Part shown: piece after piece, positions 10,602 through 30,367 of the stretch
Position numbering within the stretch: the first letter of the stretch is position 1
Layout: the number at the start of each line of letters is the position of its first letter
NCBI GenBank assembly: GCA_026709935.1
Contig: JAPOSC010000013.1
Span: 1-64,000 of the forward strand
Direction: 5' to 3'
DNA: 64,000 nt
Source of the DNA: Thiotrichales bacterium
Lineage (GTDB): Bacteria > Pseudomonadota > Gammaproteobacteria > HK1
Notes under the pieces: generated by a model
Told to the model about the DNA's origin: nothing
Seen by the model: the letters and a program-made list of their open reading frames with translations, nothing else
Database searches by the model: none
Translations under genes and position numbers: made by a program

Positions 10602-11072
10602 TCAGAAATTCACTTGCCAGATGCTGGATGCCTGCTTCGCCATCCACCCCTGACGCGAACCGATTTTGTCCACCGTCCAGGCATCGAATTCCTCCGCCAG
10701 CTTTCTGGTGATCGCGAACTCACTCTCCAGATAGGCGCGTCGCCTCTCGGTAAATCCGGTGTTTCCCAGGCGCCGGTTCGGGTTCGAATCCAACAGTGTC
10801 ATGTTGCCCAGTCGGTAGGTTGACGCTTCGCGCTGCTGTTCATCGAATTGTTGCCAGTCGTCGCCGGGACTCTCCGGCAGTACGTGTTCGATGCTGTAGC
10901 CCATGTAGTGCGCAGGTTCGGGCTCGTCCCCGAACAGGCCGACGATGTCCAGCCACAGGTCATCCCAGTGGTCGACATCCCACGAATAGTCACGCTGGAA
11001 CCGAGGCACGCGATAGCTGAGCCCGTTTCCCATCAACTGGCGAAACGTCTGGCTCGTGGTGTTGAAGTTCAT
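10602..11072 (-). pseudogene. Internally deleted GmrSD-type restriction gene (DUF262 start fused to DUF1524 end)
   Basis: The 156-codon frame is open, but its two ends belong to a much longer protein. Residues 1-59 are the DUF262 N-terminus (RQLMGNGLSYRVPRFQRDYSW, then AHYMGY). The DUF1524 HNH end follows directly at SIEHVLPES, then RLGNMTLLDSNPNRRLGN and the C-terminal helix. In full-length GmrS/GmrD fusions several hundred residues lie between, including the DGQQR nucleotide-binding motif, which is absent here. The fusion point is near 10896. Either an in-frame deletion remnant or a mini-protein; nuclease activity without the NTPase core is doubtful. ATG 11072 is the family start. Confidence 0.75.
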
Positions 11073-11160
11073 GTTCGACCCACCACCACCGTTGTGTCCC
11101 CCGAGGGACTGAGACCCGCGCAAGGGAGGTGTGGCTGGCCCGATCCAATCCGAGTCCGTC

Positions 11161-13900: not shown

Positions 13901-14149
13901 ATGAGCAGGACGATTTCCCAGAGAGAGCTCCGCAACGATTCCGGCGCGATTCTGCGCGAGGTGCAGGCCGGTCAAACGATCATCGTCACCCGAAACGGGG
14001 TGCCGGTGGCCGACCTCCGCGCGGTTCCACAGCGGCGGTTCGTCCATCGGGCGGTGATTGCCGAGGCGGCGCGGCGCGCCCCTCGGGTCGATGCCGATCG
14101 CATGCGCGCCGATCTGGATGCTGTCGTGGATCAGTCCGTCGATGGGTGA
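13901..14149 (+). CDS. Phd/YefM family antitoxin
   Basis: 82 aa. MSRTISQRELRNDSGAILREVQAG...VTRNGVPVADLRAV is the standard Phd/YefM DNA-binding N-terminus; the basic/acidic C-terminus should wrap the toxin. It probably represses its own operon. Its stop overlaps the start of the downstream PIN toxin by eight bases (ATG 14142, TGA 14147-14149), typical of coupled antitoxin-toxin pairs. An upstream GTG at 13874 is possible but the family starts at 13901. Confidence 0.88.
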   Translation: MSRTISQRELRNDSGAILREVQAGQTIIVTRNGVPVADLRAVPQRRFVHRAVIAEAARRAPRVDADRMRADLDAVVDQSVDG

Positions 14150-14543
14150 GACGACCAGAGGGTTGCTCGATACATCGGTGGTGATCGACCATGACATCGT
14201 CGATCCGGCGGCGCTCCCGGACGAATCCGCAATTGCCGCCGTGACGCTTGCCGAGCTCGCGGCCGGTCCTCACGCCACCGTTGACGATGCGGAAAGGGCA
14301 CGGCGTCAGGATCGTCTCCAGTGGGCGGTCGCCACGTGGGAGCCCCTGCCCCTCGACGCGGAGGCCGCTCGCGCCTACGGCCGCGTATTCGCAGCCACGA
14401 GAGCGAAAGGGCGATCCAGCCGAATGCGCCTGGCTGATTTGCTCATTGCGGCGACTGCCGCCGCCCACGGTCTGCCGCTCTACACCAGAAACCCTGGGGA
14501 TCTCGTCGGTCTGGAGGAAATCGTCCACGTAGTCGGTGTGTGA
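14142..14543 (+). CDS. vapC: VapC-type PIN-domain RNase toxin
   Basis: 133 aa. PIN fold with the acidic metal-binding set Asp10 (GLLDTSVVID), Glu38 (VTLAELAAGP), Asp99 (RMRLADLLIAATA) and Asp120 near the TRNPGD motif. VapC toxins cleave tRNA or rRNA and are held inactive by their antitoxin. Start ATG 14142 overlaps the antitoxin stop. All active-site residues look intact, so this pair is probably functional, in contrast to the other toxin genes in this window. Confidence 0.88.
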   Translation: MGETTRGLLDTSVVIDHDIVDPAALPDESAIAAVTLAELAAGPHATVDDAERARRQDRLQWAVATWEPLPLDAEAARAYGRVFAATRAKGRSSRMRLADLLIAATAAAHGLPLYTRNPGDLVGLEEIVHVVGV

Positions 14544-19757: not shown

Positions 19758-20396
19758 ATGCGCAAGATCGCGGTGGACGCAAACCTGTTGGTCAGGAACG
19801 CAGCGCGCCGGCTAATCCTGGGGACCGCCGAGCTGACAGGGTGCGGAGTCATCGTACCCGAAACTGCGGATCTGATGAGCAGGCAGGTGTACCGCAAGGT
19901 GAGAGGCAGTGGCGCCAGAGCACAAGTCATGCACGAGATGATCAAGGAAGGGAAGGACATCCACAGCGAGGAAGGGGCTGAGAGACTGAAGAACAGGTTG
20001 GACCTGCAAGAAGCGGATTTCGCGCGATGGCTGGACACGGAACCGGAACGGAACGACGGGGTACTGGAGAGAGGCCCGAGAACGGAGCAAACGAAGAGGA
20101 CGGCCGCAGCCTTGCTGGCCGCTGGGGTAGTAGAGGACGCGGAGGATACGAGGTTCGGTACTGGTGAGGACCCGCAGGTGCTGGCGGAGGCGCTGGAAGC
20201 CGGCGCGCAATGGATCGCGAGCGACAACCTCAAGACGATCGTGGTGGGGGCGATGGAGAGGTGGTTCGACAAGGAGCAGGTGATGGGGCGGTATATGCAC
20301 GTTCCGCGACCGTTCATCTTGCAGGCGGACGAAGCGGTCGGACAGTTGTTGAAGGAACACGACCCGCAAAGAATGGCGGACCCGTGGCAGGCCTAG
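19758..20396 (+). CDS. PIN-like nuclease domain protein
   Basis: 212 aa, longer than VapC. Acidic residues fit a PIN active site: Asp7 (KIAVDANLLVR), Glu35 (VIVPETADLM), Asp138 (GTGEDPQVLAEAL) and Asp156 (QWIASDNL). The middle (about 50-115) is a charged helical insertion. The plus strand here is strongly purine-rich, unlike the genes further left, which hints at a different origin. A tgacacaggtcg-acgat motif before it (19719-19736) repeats one at 19148-19165 before the first 83-bp repeat. RNase or toxin function is inferred; the partner is unclear. Confidence 0.6.
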   Translation: MRKIAVDANLLVRNAARRLILGTAELTGCGVIVPETADLMSRQVYRKVRGSGARAQVMHEMIKEGKDIHSEEGAERLKNRLDLQEADFARWLDTEPERNDGVLERGPRTEQTKRTAAALLAAGVVEDAEDTRFGTGEDPQVLAEALEAGAQWIASDNLKTIVVGAMERWFDKEQVMGRYMHVPRPFILQADEAVGQLLKEHDPQRMADPWQA

Positions 20397-22372: not shown

Positions 22373-22495
22373 GCGTGCTCCTGGTGATGGAGTGGACTGA
22401 CTGACGGCTCTGCACGACGGAGACGCGGGATTTCGAGCGGTTTATAGCAGAAGAAGACGGCCTGGCAATGAACAAATTCACGAAGTGTGAAAACC

Positions 22496-23083
22496 ATGTC
22501 AACCCTCCAATTTCCCTATCGAAACCGATGGCCAACGCGCCAGTCAGCAACGGTGCCTACAATGCCGATGCGGTGGAGAATCATCGACACCAGTCCCTAC
22601 CCCGGAAGGTATATCACGGGAGAACTCAGTTTGAATCTCCCATTCGGCACCGTCGCAGACTGGCATCCAACCGTATGGAAAACAAGCTGTGAACATCCAT
22701 TAAGCACACGCTCGCGCGGTCGCGACGCATGCTGCACGCTTGGGAATGCACTGTGGGAAGTCGAAGGACTCGTGGATGCGCGAGATGCGCTTCAACAAAT
22801 CGGTCATCCCCAAGGGGATTCGCACACCGTGATATGGGCGGCAAAGCATGCGCGCGCAGTAGCCGAAATGGTTCTGACAGGTCTCTTTGCAGACAAAAAA
22901 ATATACAGCCCAGACCCCAGAACAGTGATCAGATGGTTGTCCAGAAAAAAAATGGAAGAATGCAGAACATACCTGCAATCGGTCCAACACAGACTCTCAC
23001 TCGAACAAGCAGATGAACTGCGGAGTTGGATGGAAAGGACCTATCAGGACCCACTTCTGCACGTGAACAACAGGACCTCGTGA
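22496..23083 (+). CDS. Unknown protein coupled to an AbiEii-like nucleotidyltransferase
   Basis: About 195 aa from ATG 22496; GTG 22487 or the internal ATG at 22565-22571 are alternatives, the last giving a cleaner start MRWRIIDTSPYPG. I recognise no family. Visible features are an N-terminal beta-like part (PGRYITGELSLNLPFGTVADWHP), a middle with TLGNALWEVEGLVDARDALQQIGHP and a helical, Arg/Lys-rich C-terminus. No clear winged-helix motif is seen, unlike AbiEi antitoxins. Its stop and the next start form TGATG, so the two are translated together. The codons are more AT-rich than the surrounding genes, suggesting transfer. By position it is the candidate antitoxin or regulator. Confidence 0.6.
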   Translation: MSTLQFPYRNRWPTRQSATVPTMPMRWRIIDTSPYPGRYITGELSLNLPFGTVADWHPTVWKTSCEHPLSTRSRGRDACCTLGNALWEVEGLVDARDALQQIGHPQGDSHTVIWAAKHARAVAEMVLTGLFADKKIYSPDPRTVIRWLSRKKMEECRTYLQSVQHRLSLEQADELRSWMERTYQDPLLHVNNRTS

Positions 23084-24054
23084 TGGAAATCATCCATGCT
23101 GACGAGGAAATGCAGACAATCGAAGCCCGACTGGGATGGATGCTGAACAACCTGTACAGAGAAAGCGACCGGAGGCAAAGCACATTTCAACGCCCCGTCC
23201 TGATCGGCGGCACAGCCCTCAGACGCGCCTATGGACTGACTCGACCGTCCACAGATCTTGATTTTGCCGTCGAAGACGCAAGCGAAATGGATTTGATCCG
23301 GCGAACAATCAAAAGAATCATGTCTGAACGGTGGCCGCAATCAAAAGAACATGTACGAACTGACGACGAGACGGGTTGGCACATCGGCGATCAAGTAAGC
23401 GGAATGCTGCTCCACTATGGAGGCATGATGATGCCAGCGACAACACTGGAGCTGGCACGGTTCCAGAATCAGATATGGACATTGCCCATGTCACGACTCG
23501 CCACCATGAAAGTCGACGTCGCCGATGGGAAAAGGCACAAGATCCGTGACCTGTACGACCTCGGATTCATCGCCGAACACTACCCGGGAGACTTGACCGA
23601 GCGCCAACTTCAAATCACAGACTCATTGGCACGACAACTGTACTCCACACAGAACCCCTGGCACCAAAATCATCTCCAGGACCCGCTCTTCGAACCCATT
23701 GAGCCGATTTCTCTGGCAGAGCAAATCCGCGAAGCGGTATCAGAAGCACACAGACACATCGATGGCGCAAGAAGGGGGCTATGGCTGAATCAATCGCAAG
23801 CGTTAGCAACCATGGAAGAGGTCTTGTTCGAATCCCCCGTGGGGGAATGGAGAACAACGCAACACGAATCCTGCGTTAAAGCACAATGGATCGCAAAGTC
23901 GGGAGAAATTCAATGGAGTGGCACGCTTGAAAACCACACGAGAGCCCAATCACTCGCTGATTTTCTCGGATTGGAAGACCCCAAGGAAGATGACAACAAG
24001 AAACACGACATGGCGCACTCCCGCAGGCGGGGCTCCAATGAGCACGAGCGCTGA
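23083..24054 (+). CDS. AbiEii/AbiGii-type nucleotidyltransferase toxin candidate
   Basis: 323 aa. The nucleotidyltransferase core is clear: VLIGGTALRRAYGLTRPSTDLDF at residues 39-61, with the GG and the metal-binding Asp58-x-Asp60. A later LATMKVDVADGKRHKIRDLYDLGFI fits the Lys and Asp of the AbiEii/MenT family, which add nucleotides to tRNA 3' ends. The C-terminal third is unusual, with WRTTQHESCVKAQWIAKSG and a Lys/Asp/Arg-rich tail. ATG 23083 is part of TGATG shared with the upstream gene. An abortive-infection toxin is the likely role; the target is not shown. Confidence 0.75.
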   Translation: MEIIHADEEMQTIEARLGWMLNNLYRESDRRQSTFQRPVLIGGTALRRAYGLTRPSTDLDFAVEDASEMDLIRRTIKRIMSERWPQSKEHVRTDDETGWHIGDQVSGMLLHYGGMMMPATTLELARFQNQIWTLPMSRLATMKVDVADGKRHKIRDLYDLGFIAEHYPGDLTERQLQITDSLARQLYSTQNPWHQNHLQDPLFEPIEPISLAEQIREAVSEAHRHIDGARRGLWLNQSQALATMEEVLFESPVGEWRTTQHESCVKAQWIAKSGEIQWSGTLENHTRAQSLADFLGLEDPKEDDNKKHDMAHSRRRGSNEHER

Positions 24055-24752: not shown

Positions 24753-27700
24753 ATGGAAGTCTCCGCCAACTTCGCGTTCCTGAAGCAGGAGTTTCCGCAT
24801 GTGGCGGAGAGCGCGAGTTATGCGGAGCATCACGTCCATGGCGACCCGCGGGCGTCGTGCTTTCATGCCCGGCATGCGCTGGAGCGTCTGGTCAAGCGGA
24901 TCTACAAGATCGACCAGGCTCTGAGCCCGCTGAAGGTCACGCACCTGGATGCCTACCTCGGCGAGCCGGCCTTCCGGAATCTGGTACCCGAGGCGGTGTG
25001 GCAGAAGGCGGAGTTCATCCGGCAGGCGGGCAACGTGGCGGTGCACGGCAACCGGACGCCGGCGCCGGAACATGCGCTGAACGTCGTGCGGGAGCTGGCG
25101 CATGTCCTCTACTGGGCGGGCCGCACCTATTTGCGCAAAGGGGCGGAGAGTCTTCACGGGCAGACTTTCGACGAGTCCCTCGTTCCCACCACCGAACCGG
25201 GCACCGCGCCGTTCAGCGTCGAGGCGCTGGACACCCTCAAGCGCCAACTGGACGCGGCCGACGAGGCACGCAAGGAGCTTGAGGGCGAGCTGGAGGCGAT
25301 GCAGGAACGGCTCGACGCCATCAAGGCGGAGAACGCGACCGTTCCGGAGACCCGGGACTGGAACGAGAGCGCGACCCGCCGGCTGATCATCGACCTGGCC
25401 CTCCAGCGGGCCGGCTGGCTGCTCGAAGGGGCGCACGACCGCGAGTACCAGATCACGGGGATGCCGAACGCCTCGGGCATCGGTTATGCCGATTACGTCC
25501 TGTGGGGAGACGACGGCAAGCCGCTGGCGGTGGTGGAGGCGAAGAAGACCACCCGCCGTCCGGCCGCGGGCCGGCAGCAGGCCAAGCTCTACGCGGACGG
25601 TCTGGAGGCCATGCACGGCCAGCGCCCGATCATCTTCTACACCAACGGGTACGAGACCTGGCTCTGGGACGACCGGAGCTACACCCCGCGCGTCGTCGCC
25701 GGCTTCTACAAGAAGGACGAGCTGGCGTCCCTGAACCACCGTCGCACCCACCGCCAGCGGCTGGACGTGACGGAGGTCAGGGACGCCATCGCCGGGCGGT
25801 ACTACCAGAAGCGAGCCATCGCGAGCATCGGCGAGCGGTTCGCCGAGGCGCGGCGCAAGGCGTTGCTGGTGATGGCGACCGGCAGCGGCAAGACCCGGGT
25901 GGCGATTGCGCTGGTGGACCTGCTGCAACGCGCGGGCTGGGTGAAGCGGGCGCTGTTTCTGGCCGACCGGGTGTCGCTGGTGAACCAGGCGGTGGGGGCG
26001 TTCAAGGCCCACCTGCCGGAGTCGAGCCCGGTGAATCTGGTGACCGAGAAAGACCAGGCGGGCCGGGTCTACGTCTGCACCTATCCGACGATGATGGGGC
26101 TGATCGACGAGACCGCGGGCGCGGAGGCCCGCTTCGGGGTCGGGCACTTCGACCTCCTAATCATCGACGAGGCCCACCGTTCGGTATATCAGAAGTACGG
26201 AGCCATCTTCCGGTACTTCGACGCGCTCCTGGTGGGTCTGACCGCCACGCCCCGGGATCAGGTGGACCGCAACACCTACGCGCTCTTCGACCTGGAGCCG
26301 GGCGTGCCCACCGATGCGTACGAGCTCGAGACGGCGGTGGCGGACGGCTTTCTCGTGCCGCCGAAGGTGCAGCAGGTGGATCTGCGGTTTCCGCGCGAGG
26401 GCATCGACTACCACGCGCTCAGCGAGGAAGAGCAGGCACAGTGGGAGAGCCTCGACTGGGGCGATGAGGGGGACGACGGCGGGCGACTGGAGCGGGTCGA
26501 TGCCGCCGCCATCAACCGCTGGCTCTTCAACGCCGACACCGCCGACAAGGTGCTGCAGCATCTCATGGAGCATGGCCACACCGTCGACGGTGGCGACCGG
26601 CTCGCCAAGACCATCATCTTCGCGCGCAATCACGCCCATGCGATGTTCATCGAAGCGCGGTTCAACCACCACTACCCGAGCCACGCCGGCCACTTCGCCC
26701 GCGTCATCGACAATTACGCCACGTATCCGCAGAGCCTGATCGACGACTTTGCGCAGAAGGACAAGGCGCCGCACATCGCGATTTCCGTGGACATGCTCGA
26801 CACCGGCGTCGACGTGCCCGAGGTCGCCAACCTCGTCTTCTTCAAGCCGGTCTACTCGCGCATCAAGTTCTGGCAGATGATCGGGCGCGGCACGCGCCTG
26901 TGCCCCGACCTGTTCGGCCCCGGGGAGGACAAGCAGGACTTCCGCGTGTTCGATTTCTGCTCCAACTTCGACTTCTTCGGCGAGCAGCCGGAGGGGATCG
27001 AGAGCACTGGCGGGGTGCCGCTCCGCACCCGGCTCTTCCGGTCGCGGGTGCAGTTGCTGGCCAGGATTCAGGCGGCGACCGCCAAGGTTCAGGCGGCGTC
27101 GGCCTTGGACGCGGAGGCGGCGCTGGCCCTGGACCCGGAGGCGGCGTCGGCCCTGGACGCGGAGGCGGGGCTGGCCTTGGACGCGGAGGCGGCGCCGGCC
27201 GAGGCGCTGGCGGCGACGCTGAAAGCGACGCTCCAGGGGGAAGTGGCGGCGATGAACCGCGAGAACTTCATCGTGCGGATGCGGCTCGAAGCGGTCGAGC
27301 GTTTCCGGCGGCCGGCGTCCTGGCCGCGGCTCACCGCGGCCGACATCGAGACCCTGCAGGACGAGGTGGCCGGACTGCCCAGCGAGGTCGAGCCCGACGA
27401 CATCGAGTCGCGCCTGTTCGACCTCACGGCGCTGAAGATGCAACTGGCCCTCGCCGAGGGCGACACCGGCGCGTTCGAGCGGCACCGCCGACGGGTGGTG
27501 GAGATCGCGGCGCTGCTCGAAGAGAAGCGCACGATTCCCGCGGTGGCGGCTCAGCTTGCGTACCTGGCTTCAGTGCAGGAGCGCGCCTTCTGGGAAGGCA
27601 TCACTCTGGACGGGATCGAAACGTTGCGCCGGCGCCTGCGGGGCCTCGCGCCCTTCCTGGACCGGAAGGCGCGCCCCATCGTCTACACCGACTTCCGGGA

Positions 27701-28244
27701 CGAGATCACGGCCGTGCGCGAGGACGCGGCCGGCTACCTGCCGAAGATGACCGGGGTCGAGTACGAGAAGAAGGTGCGCGAGTACCTGCGGAACCATCTC
27801 GACCACCTCGTGATCCATCGCCTGCGGACCAACCAGCCGCTCACCGCGACGGACCTGCAAGGGCTCGAACAGACCCTGGTCGAAATCGGCGAGGACGCCG
27901 GCCGAACGCTGCTGAACGGCCTCCTGGCCCGGAGCGCCACCCCCTCCCTGGCGCATTTCGTGCGCAGCATGGTGGGGATGGACCGCGCCGCCGCCCAGGC
28001 GGCCTTCTCCGAGTTCCTCTCCAACCGGAGCCTGACCACACCGCAGATCCGCTTCATCGAGATGGTGATCGAGCAGCTCACGACGCGAGGCGTCGTGGAG
28101 CCCTCCGCCCTCTACGAGGCGCCGTTCAGCAACGTGCACGCCGGCGGCCCCGATGCGCTGTTCGCCGGAAAGAGCAACGTGATCGACGCAATCTTCGAAA
28201 AGCTGAAAGCCCTGGCCCCCGAACCCCTGGCCGACACCGGCTGA
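24753..28244 (+). CDS. hsdR: Type I restriction-like R subunit (HsdR/EcoEI type) helicase-nuclease, orphan
   Basis: 1163 aa. Domains in order: DUF4145 (about 20-125, FHARHALERLVKRIY...GNVAVHGNR), a coiled segment (150-200), an HsdR nuclease core with D-x13-E-x-K in YADYVLWGDDGKPLAVVEAKK (about 245-265), Walker A VMATGSGKTR (about 371-380), DEAH (about 470-473), motif III GLTATPRD, motif VI MIGRGTRLCPDLF (about 707-719) and an EcoEI-R-type C-terminus. It would translocate and cut unmodified DNA with HsdM/HsdS partners, but no hsdM or hsdS lies within the window. A 24-bp tandem repeat adds four eight-residue units at about 782-813. Downstream on the same strand is the AAA-PIN pair. Confidence 0.88.
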   Translation: MEVSANFAFLKQEFPHVAESASYAEHHVHGDPRASCFHARHALERLVKRIYKIDQALSPLKVTHLDAYLGEPAFRNLVPEAVWQKAEFIRQAGNVAVHGNRTPAPEHALNVVRELAHVLYWAGRTYLRKGAESLHGQTFDESLVPTTEPGTAPFSVEALDTLKRQLDAADEARKELEGELEAMQERLDAIKAENATVPETRDWNESATRRLIIDLALQRAGWLLEGAHDREYQITGMPNASGIGYADYVLWGDDGKPLAVVEAKKTTRRPAAGRQQAKLYADGLEAMHGQRPIIFYTNGYETWLWDDRSYTPRVVAGFYKKDELASLNHRRTHRQRLDVTEVRDAIAGRYYQKRAIASIGERFAEARRKALLVMATGSGKTRVAIALVDLLQRAGWVKRALFLADRVSLVNQAVGAFKAHLPESSPVNLVTEKDQAGRVYVCTYPTMMGLIDETAGAEARFGVGHFDLLIIDEAHRSVYQKYGAIFRYFDALLVGLTATPRDQVDRNTYALFDLEPGVPTDAYELETAVADGFLVPPKVQQVDLRFPREGIDYHALSEEEQAQWESLDWGDEGDDGGRLERVDAAAINRWLFNADTADKVLQHLMEHGHTVDGGDRLAKTIIFARNHAHAMFIEARFNHHYPSHAGHFARVIDNYATYPQSLIDDFAQKDKAPHIAISVDMLDTGVDVPEVANLVFFKPVYSRIKFWQMIGRGTRLCPDLFGPGEDKQDFRVFDFCSNFDFFGEQPEGIESTGGVPLRTRLFRSRVQLLARIQAATAKVQAASALDAEAALALDPEAASALDAEAGLALDAEAAPAEALAATLKATLQGEVAAMNRENFIVRMRLEAVERFRRPASWPRLTAADIETLQDEVAGLPSEVEPDDIESRLFDLTALKMQLALAEGDTGAFERHRRRVVEIAALLEEKRTIPAVAAQLAYLASVQERAFWEGITLDGIETLRRRLRGLAPFLDRKARPIVYTDFRDEITAVREDAAGYLPKMTGVEYEKKVREYLRNHLDHLVIHRLRTNQPLTATDLQGLEQTLVEIGEDAGRTLLNGLLARSATPSLAHFVRSMVGMDRAAAQAAFSEFLSNRSLTTPQIRFIEMVIEQLTTRGVVEPSALYEAPFSNVHAGGPDALFAGKSNVIDAIFEKLKALAPEPLADTG
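27096..27191 (+). repeat. In-frame 24-bp tandem repeat in hsdR
   Basis: Four near-identical 24-bp units encode the eight-residue units ASALDAEA, ALALDPEA, ASALDAEA and GLALDAEA. The stretch sits between the helicase and the C-terminal domain and may act as a flexible or helical linker of variable length. Confidence 0.8.
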
Positions 28245-28537
28245 GAAGGTTGGACTCCGGGGTTGCCGAGAGTCTATTGCTGGCGGGGCCGAAGTGACGA
28301 ACCATCGCCTGCGGGTGCGCACGGCATTGGCCGCGTGACTCAGGCAGAGCAGTTTCCGGAAATCTCGGGACCGTTCGGAAACGGACGTACGCGCACTGTT
28401 GGCGGCGAGGTGGTTTGCCCTGTGGCCGTGTCAGTGCGAACCGGGTGGATGGCGGCTCGGACCGTCGTCACCCGGGCACTGCCACTGCGCTGATACAATC
28501 GGTCCGGCGCATGCCCCTTGCCATAAGCCTACCAGCG

Positions 28538-29899
28538 ATGGACGAGATCACACTTCGAAACTTCCGTTGCTTTCGTGACGAGCAGACTGCGCGTCTCGCT
28601 CCACTTACCCTCCTTGTTGGCGAGAACAGTACGGGCAAGACGTCCTTCATGGCAATGGTGCGCGCCCTCTGGGAATTGGCCTTTCACGATCAGATTCCAG
28701 ACTTCAAGGATCCCCCGTACGACCTTGGCAGCTTTGACGAGATTGCCCACCACCGGGGTGCGCGAGGCAGTCGAGCGGAGGAGATATTCGCGGCGTTCAA
28801 GACCCTGCGATGTGCCCCCCCGCGCAAGCGAACAGAGCCGGAACCATCACAGACGGTGGAATACCGTGCCACGTTCCGAAAGCGCGGTACTGCCCCGTTT
28901 CCCGTTGATCTGCGCCTCTCCGGAGGGCAGTCGTGGGTGCAATACCAGTTTCGGGATCGGCTATGGACAAGATTCGGGACCGAGCGAGGATCATGGAAGG
29001 TCCCCGACCATGACCCTTCGCGTGGCCAGCGCGTGGATCGGACGCGGGAATTGGTTCCGTTCTCTTCAGCGCTTCGGATGCTCCAGGCCGTCGAGTCGGA
29101 CGAAGACAACCAACTGGAGACAATCGAGGGAAAGCGACGTCCCGGACGCGACGACTACCTGAAGGTATGGCGGCTCTCGCAACTCATGCGGACTCCTGAC
29201 TCGAACCGGCTATGGCCGTATGCAAGTGCCCCGGTACGCTCCGTGCCGCGGCGGACTTATGACCCCAGGCCCTTCGAGGACGATCCCGAAGGCGAGTACG
29301 TCCCGATGTATCTCGCCAATATCTTCTTTCACGATCCCGATGAATGGAACGTACTGAAGGTCCGGCTCGAGGCGTTCGGCAGAGAATCGGGGTTGTTCGA
29401 CGAGATTGCGATTCGTTCCTTCGGCAAGAAGGACAGCGAACCGTTCCAGGTACAGGTGAGGAAGTATGCCCGAACCCTCAAGGGGCCCATGCGCAATCTG
29501 ATCGACGTCGGTTATGGAGTGAGTCAGACAATTCCGGTACTTACCGAGCTTCTTCGTGAGGACTGCTCCCCCATCTTGCTGCTGCAGCAACCCGAGGTGC
29601 ATCTCCATCCAAGTGCCCAGGCGGCGCTCGGCTCCCTGTTCTGCAACCTTGCAGGTCCGAAGCGCCAGCTTGTTGTCGAGACGCACAGCGATCACCTTCT
29701 CGATCGCGTACGGATGGAGATCCGGGACGGCGCCGGGACACTCGGTCCGGACGATGTCTCCGTTCTCTTCTTCGAACGGTGTGAACTCGACGTGCAGATC
29801 CACTCCCTTCGCATAGACAAGGACGGGAACGTGCTTGGCGCCCCCGATACTTACCGAAGTTTCTTTCTTGAAGAGACCACGCGATCTCTCGGGCTCTGA
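28538..29899 (+). CDS. AAA family ATPase (AAA_21/DUF3696 type), paired with a PIN nuclease
   Basis: 453 aa. Starts MDEITLRNFRCF, the standard strand before Walker A LLVGENSTGKTSF (residues 24-36). After a long central insertion it has a LLLQQPEVHLHPSAQAA Walker B region (usual acidic pair is Gln-x-Glu here) and the LVVETHSDHLLDRVRMEI H-loop. It ends with VSVLFFERCELD...IHSLRIDKDGN, matching DUF3696-type ATPases related to OLD and Rad50/SMC heads. No nuclease domain of its own. The PIN gene starts three bases after its stop. Such ATPases often sense phage or DNA ends and control a partner nuclease; that role is inferred. Confidence 0.82.
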   Translation: MDEITLRNFRCFRDEQTARLAPLTLLVGENSTGKTSFMAMVRALWELAFHDQIPDFKDPPYDLGSFDEIAHHRGARGSRAEEIFAAFKTLRCAPPRKRTEPEPSQTVEYRATFRKRGTAPFPVDLRLSGGQSWVQYQFRDRLWTRFGTERGSWKVPDHDPSRGQRVDRTRELVPFSSALRMLQAVESDEDNQLETIEGKRRPGRDDYLKVWRLSQLMRTPDSNRLWPYASAPVRSVPRRTYDPRPFEDDPEGEYVPMYLANIFFHDPDEWNVLKVRLEAFGRESGLFDEIAIRSFGKKDSEPFQVQVRKYARTLKGPMRNLIDVGYGVSQTIPVLTELLREDCSPILLLQQPEVHLHPSAQAALGSLFCNLAGPKRQLVVETHSDHLLDRVRMEIRDGAGTLGPDDVSVLFFERCELDVQIHSLRIDKDGNVLGAPDTYRSFFLEETTRSLGL

Positions 29900-29902
29900 G
29901 CA

Positions 29903-30367
29903 ATGTGCGCAATCCTCGATGCGAACGTGGCTCATGAGGTGTTCACCACGAATCAGACGGAGGCAGGTCGGGCATTCCTCTGCTGGCTGACCAGGCGCCA
30001 GGGACGGCTGGTTGTGGGCGGGAAACTGCGCCTTGAACTCGCGAGACACCGGGCGGCCGAAAGATGGATCGTCGAGGGTATCCGTGCGGGACGAGTACGC
30101 GTCGCAAAGAATGACGACGTTGACAGGCTGGCGGAAGAGCTTGCCGGTTCCTGCCGCTCGGACGACCCCCACATCATCGCACTCGCGCGGATCAGCGGGG
30201 CGCGCCTGCTCTACTCGAACGATCGAGCACTGCACCAGGACTTCGGTAACAGGGATCTGTTGACACATCCACGAGGCAAGGTTTTCTCGACATCGGAAAC
30301 GCCTCGTCTGACCGAAGTTCACCAAAAACTCCTTAATCGGGCAGATCTGTGCCGTCGCGCGGATTGA
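29903..30367 (+). CDS. PIN-like nuclease, partner of the AAA ATPase
   Basis: 154 aa. PIN acidic residues are Asp6 (AILDANVAHEVF), Glu45 (LRLELARHR), Asp87/Asp88 (RSDDPHIIALARISG) and Asp107 (LLYSNDRALHQDF). It differs from VapC in its SDDPH and SNDRALHQDF motifs, which resemble stand-alone PIN-like proteins. No antitoxin gene is nearby; its tight spacing to the AAA ATPase suggests that the ATPase controls it. A nuclease effector of a defence module is the best guess. Confidence 0.75.
   Translation: MCAILDANVAHEVFTTNQTEAGRAFLCWLTRRQGRLVVGGKLRLELARHRAAERWIVEGIRAGRVRVAKNDDVDRLAEELAGSCRSDDPHIIALARISGARLLYSNDRALHQDFGNRDLLTHPRGKVFSTSETPRLTEVHQKLLNRADLCRRAD

Follow-up and report, generated by a model that had tools for sequence, protein, structure and literature searches.

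In PARIS, AriA senses phage Ocr and activates the TOPRIM nuclease AriB, which in turn cuts tRNA (PMC12839542). In WonAB, an OLD-ABC ATPase acts with a PD-(D/E)xK partner to stop translation and abort infection (PMC12137116). Dyads of an OLD-ABC ATPase and a PIN endoRNase found near BREX have been reported as a class and are predicted to serve as a back-up or abortive effector (PMC12839542). The nearest catalogued plan to the locus described here is HEC-03, one of the Hma-embedded candidates (HEC) of PADLOC (PMC12988326), in which a DUF3696-type ATPase gene (HEC-03B) is followed by a PIN-like gene (HEC-03A). The same order of genes is found in a stretch of bacterial DNA of 64,000 nucleotides, referred to below as the window, whose positions are used throughout unless another locus is named. 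The two genes and their predicted functional residues are as follows.

28538..29899, + strand: OLD-type ABC ATPase of 453 aa, the presumed sensor/regulator (from AAA_15, AAA_21 and the fold model)
28619..28642, + strand: Walker A motif GENSTGKT of the ATPase, residues 28-35 (G28, N30, S31, G33 and K34 invariant in 12 relatives)
29507..29527, + strand: VGYGVSQ of the ATPase, residues 324-330, inferred ABC-signature region (from conservation)
29585..29611, + strand: Walker B region QQPEVHLHP of the ATPase, residues 350-358 (from conservation)
29678..29692, + strand: ETHSD of the ATPase, residues 381-385, H-loop-like motif (E381, T382, H383 and S384 invariant)
29903..30367, + strand: predicted PIN-domain nuclease of 154 aa, the presumed effector (from the fold model and VIA-align)
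29918..29920, + strand: predicted catalytic Asp6 of the PIN protein (invariant in 12 relatives)
30035..30037, + strand: predicted catalytic Glu45 of the PIN protein (invariant in 12 relatives)
30164..30166, + strand: predicted catalytic Asp88 of the PIN protein, in an SDD/SND motif (invariant in 12 relatives)
30221..30223, + strand: predicted catalytic Asp107 of the PIN protein (invariant in 12 relatives)

The ATPase frame is open from the ATG at 28538 to the stop at 29899. A longer open reading frame begins at 28415, but the family alignment favours the ATG at 28538 because the relatives start at the same methionine. Pfam AAA_15 (71.5 bits, 1.3e-19) and AAA_21 (62.6 bits, 8e-17) both matched the protein, whereas DUF3696 reached 19.2 bits, just under its cut-off of 22; the "DUF3696-type" label of the original prediction is therefore marginal. 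Its description of the protein as an AAA ATPase has to be replaced. The structure model (pLDDT 80.7) gave its best Foldseek matches to Rad50/SMC heads and to PtuA of Septu/retron, and we therefore assigned the protein to the ABC-type ATPases of the OLD kind rather than to AAA+. No TOPRIM match was obtained from Pfam in the 453-aa protein. The motifs on which the original prediction was built, GENSTGKT, QPEVHLHP (within QQPEVHLHP) and ETHSDHLL, are all present in the ATPase. In the Walker B region Q350, Q351, P352, E353, H355, L356, H357 and P358 are invariant in 12 relatives, as are V324, G325, Y326, G327, V328 and Q330 of VGYGVSQ, the putative ABC-signature region.

Three bases (gca) separate the ATPase stop from the start of the PIN gene, which lies on the same strand (+) and is open from the ATG at 29903 to the stop at 30367; both frames are intact, and the coordinates and the gap had been given correctly by the original prediction. 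Alone, the PIN protein scored 18.2 bits against a Pfam PIN cut-off of 23.6, and its relatives reach an E-value of 2e-5. Its structure was modelled as a confident PIN fold (pLDDT 93, to one decimal 93.1), and VIA-align related the model to VapC of a VapBC toxin system (5x3t, Z 10.3) and to VapC20 (5wzf, Z 9.7), a toxin that cuts the sarcin-ricin loop. By its predicted structure the 154-aa partner clearly belongs to the PIN fold, and the four acidic residues noticed at the outset in a "PIN-like" protein correspond to D6, E45, D88 and D107, all invariant in 12 relatives. Three further residues of this protein are conserved: Cys2 (29906-29908) is the same in all 12 relatives, and His140 (30320-30322) and Cys150 (30350-30352) are the same in the closer 11. 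These perhaps form a metal site or a structural link.

We looked for the PIN family by scanning bacterial and archaeal genomes and by searching ~1,000 whole genomes drawn from three groups, namely the phylum of the window itself, the phylum of the Caldilineaceae hits and the phylum of the Desulfobacterales hits, a sample of a few hundred genomes per phylum. The family was present at 15 distinct loci, the window included, in its own phylum, in Chloroflexota and in the phylum of a Desulfobacterales genome, and was not found in the phage collection, the plasmid collection or viral contigs. The same ATPase was encoded directly upstream on the same strand at 14 of the 15 loci, with a spacing of -1 to +15 bases; this count includes two loci (L003 and L020) at which the ATPase is cut off by the end of the contig or stored stretch. 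One locus departs from this pattern: L005 (6246-6548, in a Desulfobacterales genome) encodes an N-terminally truncated PIN protein, lacks the ATPase and is apparently a decayed copy. A search that began instead from the ATPase, in 299 genomes of the window's own phylum, detected the clade twice (673 and 561 bits), each time together with the PIN gene, and the remaining ATPases scored 118 bits or less. Pairwise distances of the ATPase and PIN proteins agreed closely over 12 loci (Mantel r = 0.924, p = 1e-4), and the partners have therefore not been swapped. The pairing is far beyond chance. The original prediction treated the two genes as a unit and held that homologues which never co-occur elsewhere would speak against it; they pair repeatedly, with the ATPase upstream in distant genomes. 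Five other loci (L007, L008 and L063-L065) gave weak PIN matches of 21-26 bits, which we regarded as ordinary PIN proteins and left out.

The surroundings of one member of the family bear most directly on its function. The pair of genome G214 is flanked by an antibiotic-monooxygenase (ABM) gene on one side and by pstS on the other. The G214 flanks occur without the pair in related genomes (94-97% identical in L087, 90-97% in L089), and the stretch unique to G214 extends from the start of the ABM gene to a point 2-12 bases past the PIN stop. The pair in G214 is a precise two-gene insertion. We compared this slot between pstS and the ABM-family gene within the one genus (L027 and L106-L115). Sister species carry one module at a time there, each defence or toxin-like and each of one or two genes: Septu (PtuA 456 bits, PtuB 201 bits), AbiL (248 and 48 bits, with an RloB domain), a retron reverse transcriptase (RT-Toprim type I-C, 450 bits), a DUF262 gene resembling NsnA (219 bits), a HipA_2 gene or a gene with a RelA_SpoT domain. 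At L106 (4050-6004) the slot holds an OLD-type ATPase of yet another, third kind and, after it, a 171-aa protein that is PIN-like by motif only and has no PADLOC or Pfam match. Since the pair alternates with established defence systems in a single slot, the simplest reading is that it is a defence module, and this positional evidence is the best that we have for a defence role. The pstS-ABM slot is a compact exchange site for defence genes and could be mined for further modules.

The flanking genes elsewhere vary from locus to locus, and no third gene is conserved with the pair. Defence-type neighbours occur beside three members only: the HsdR gene in the window, a type ISP restriction-modification enzyme adjoining the pair at L002 and a TIR-domain gene adjoining it at L022. 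Because the neighbours differ among loci, the HsdR gene of the window is local context and not part of the system; its position directly before the pair, which the original prediction pointed out, is real in the window but is not conserved. Third-position G+C is 0.91 in HsdR versus 0.68 and 0.66 in the pair, and this unlikeness suggests, by inference, that the pair arrived separately. Relatives of the window's own locus have the downstream methyltransferase alone in common with it, their other neighbours being different. A search for repeats framing the window pair returned short imperfect ones, none of which bound the pair.

Several other genes of interest were observed in the window. HsdR itself (24753-28244, +) is of type I (PADLOC REase_I, 590 bits), and no modification or specificity subunit for it was recognised among the island proteins scanned. 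Upstream of it lies an AbiEi (2e-14) and AbiEii (1e-18) pair (22487-24054, +). A GmrSD remnant (10602-11123, -) consists of the N- and C-terminal parts fused in 173 aa, with the internal region lost. One further PIN-type protein is encoded at 14058-14543 (+; Pfam PIN 3e-9), and another, at 19758-20396 (+), is PIN-like by eye only. Of the window proteins examined, none was recognised as the product of a BREX gene.

The pair occupies a single conserved chromosomal site, with housekeeping genes on either side, in three related Chloroflexota genomes (L023-L025), a placement that looks vertical rather than mobile. Such a conserved site, together with the VapC-type PIN fold with its catalytic acids and the lack of a separate antitoxin gene, is consistent with a toxin-antitoxin-like stress or maintenance module, in which the ATPase would neutralise a VapC-type toxin and the pair would serve its own keeping or general stress rather than defence against phage. 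We consider this explanation unlikely. A VapB-type gene for a small DNA-binding antitoxin is absent both beside the window pair and as a conserved neighbour in the relatives, in agreement with the original prediction that the nuclease has no antitoxin; a 453-aa ABC ATPase would be unusual in that role, the case has been made that WonA, the nearest studied analogue, is no antitoxin (PMC12137116), and known defence systems occupy the slot in the genus of G214. The Chloroflexota position, and the resemblance of the ATPase model to Rad50/SMC heads, could also be accommodated if a Rad50-like ABC ATPase and a PIN nuclease acted on damaged DNA or RNA as a repair or RNA-processing pair of normal physiology. 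This appears quite improbable for genes that are rare and patchy (G000 and G214 in 299-398 genomes of the window's own phylum, and 7 among 400 genomes of the L002 phylum) and whose presence at an exchange slot differs between close relatives. The 173-aa GmrSD remnant and the HsdR without a recognisable modification subunit might suggest that the window pair is likewise defunct, surrounded as it is by remnants of restriction and toxin genes. We regard this as very improbable, given that both frames are full length and that all the ATPase motifs and all four PIN acids agree with those of relatives in other phyla.

The catalogued arrangement closest to the pair provided further information on what the nuclease may do. 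Among PADLOC models the ATPase matched NsnB best (144 bits), then PDC-M55A (102 bits), HEC-03B (85 bits) and AriA (77 bits), and the PIN protein matched no PADLOC model even at an E-value of 10, with four family members tried. A true HEC-03 (L040) scored 818 bits with HEC-03B, compared with 85 bits for the window ATPase, and 252 bits with HEC-03A, a model that the window PIN did not match. HEC-03 membership was thus ruled out on both components. A comparison of profiles of the two PIN groups, that of the window and that of the HEC-03-like loci, gave a weak match (E 0.1) in which the catalytic positions co-align. The ATPases of the window family (support 100/99), the HEC-03-like loci (98/94 and 100/99) and NsnB (100/99 and 100/100) form three separate clades, and a common origin of the association with PIN in the window and HEC-03-like ATPases was neither established nor rejected (p-AU 0.103). 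At 10 of 13 HEC-03-like loci (L032, L034, L035, L036, L037, L039, L042, L046, L047 and L051) an RNA ligase (PF09414; for example, 7e-35 in L042 and 9e-34 in L034) is the third gene, directly after the PIN-like gene, and it is absent from all loci of the window family. An operon of ATPase, PIN and RNA ligase suggests RNA cutting with built-in repair.

Taking these observations together, we think it probable that the window pair is a self-contained, horizontally moving anti-phage module in which the ATPase would keep the PIN protein inactive and the PIN protein would cut RNA and abort infection. The ATPase would be both sensor and keeper, forming an ATP-dependent dimer or larger assembly that would bind the PIN protein and hold it inactive. 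In response to a phage-made trigger, the PIN protein would be released or activated and would then cut cellular RNA, most likely tRNA or rRNA, leading to a stop in translation and to aborted infection. The binding of ATPase and PIN, the trigger, the RNA substrate and the abortive outcome are all proposed by analogy with PARIS and WonAB. PIN domains can also cut DNA; we favour RNA as the substrate because of the VapC-like fold and the RNA ligase in HEC-03-like loci, and RNA cleavage is probably the mode of action. A broader proposal, which we hold more tentatively, is that the pair represents an unnamed, self-sufficient anti-phage system of two genes, with a PIN RNase that would be fired by an OLD-type ABC sensor, within a wider ATPase/PIN group of which one branch may use its RNA ligase for repair or reset.

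This analysis provides the sequence, boundaries and predicted catalytic residues of a compact ABC-sensor/PIN-effector pair that was missed by the PADLOC models searched, and the pair is therefore directly clonable and testable. It would add an evidence-backed PIN case to the effectors of OLD-type ATPases (TOPRIM, HNH and PD-(D/E)xK), and the RNA ligase of the HEC-03-like arrangement offers a way to test RNA damage and repair in systems of this type.

The relationship of the pair to named systems is one of plan rather than of membership. The PADLOC model closest to the ATPase is NsnB of Menshen (NsnABC), at the 144 bits given above, but real NsnB loci have a DUF262 gene (NsnA) upstream, an NsnC gene for a protein of ~310 aa downstream and no PIN gene; the window has neither of these neighbours, its upstream gene being HsdR and its downstream PIN protein lacking an NsnC match, and the pair is for this reason not Menshen. 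PARIS (AriA and AriB) likewise combines an OLD-type ABC sensor, the AriA model of which scores 77 bits on the window ATPase, with a separate nuclease, but AriB is a TOPRIM enzyme whereas the window partner is by fold a PIN protein. WonAB is similarly a two-gene operon of an OLD-ABC ATPase and a small separate nuclease, which differs in that WonB has the PD-(D/E)xK fold (PMC12137116). Septu (PtuAB) shares an ABC ATPase with a separate nuclease, and also the slot in the G214 genus, but PtuB is an HNH nuclease and the window effector is by fold a PIN protein. VapBC has an effector of the same VapC/PIN fold, whereas here the partner is an ABC ATPase and there is no VapB-type antitoxin; in Gabija/OLD a TOPRIM domain is fused to the ATPase, and the window ATPase has no Pfam match to one.

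The original prediction could not match an ATPase with a PIN effector to any named system. That part no longer stands, given the published OLD-ABC/PIN pairs (PMC12839542) and HEC-03 in PADLOC. The BREX-linked dyads, compared here at the level of plan and not of sequence, resemble the pair in joining an OLD-ABC ATPase to a separate PIN nuclease, and because this pairing has been reported as a class, the plan is already known even though PADLOC misses the family. No paper naming the window family was found in the literature searched. The window pair has the features of the broad class, with both Walker motifs (A and B) and an H-loop motif in the ATPase and a dedicated nuclease gene coupled to it, as well as those of the PIN superfamily, with the predicted fold and the conserved acidic residues. 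The best reading of these comparisons is that the pair represents a separate ATPase clade and a new variant within the class of OLD-ABC sensors with nuclease effectors.
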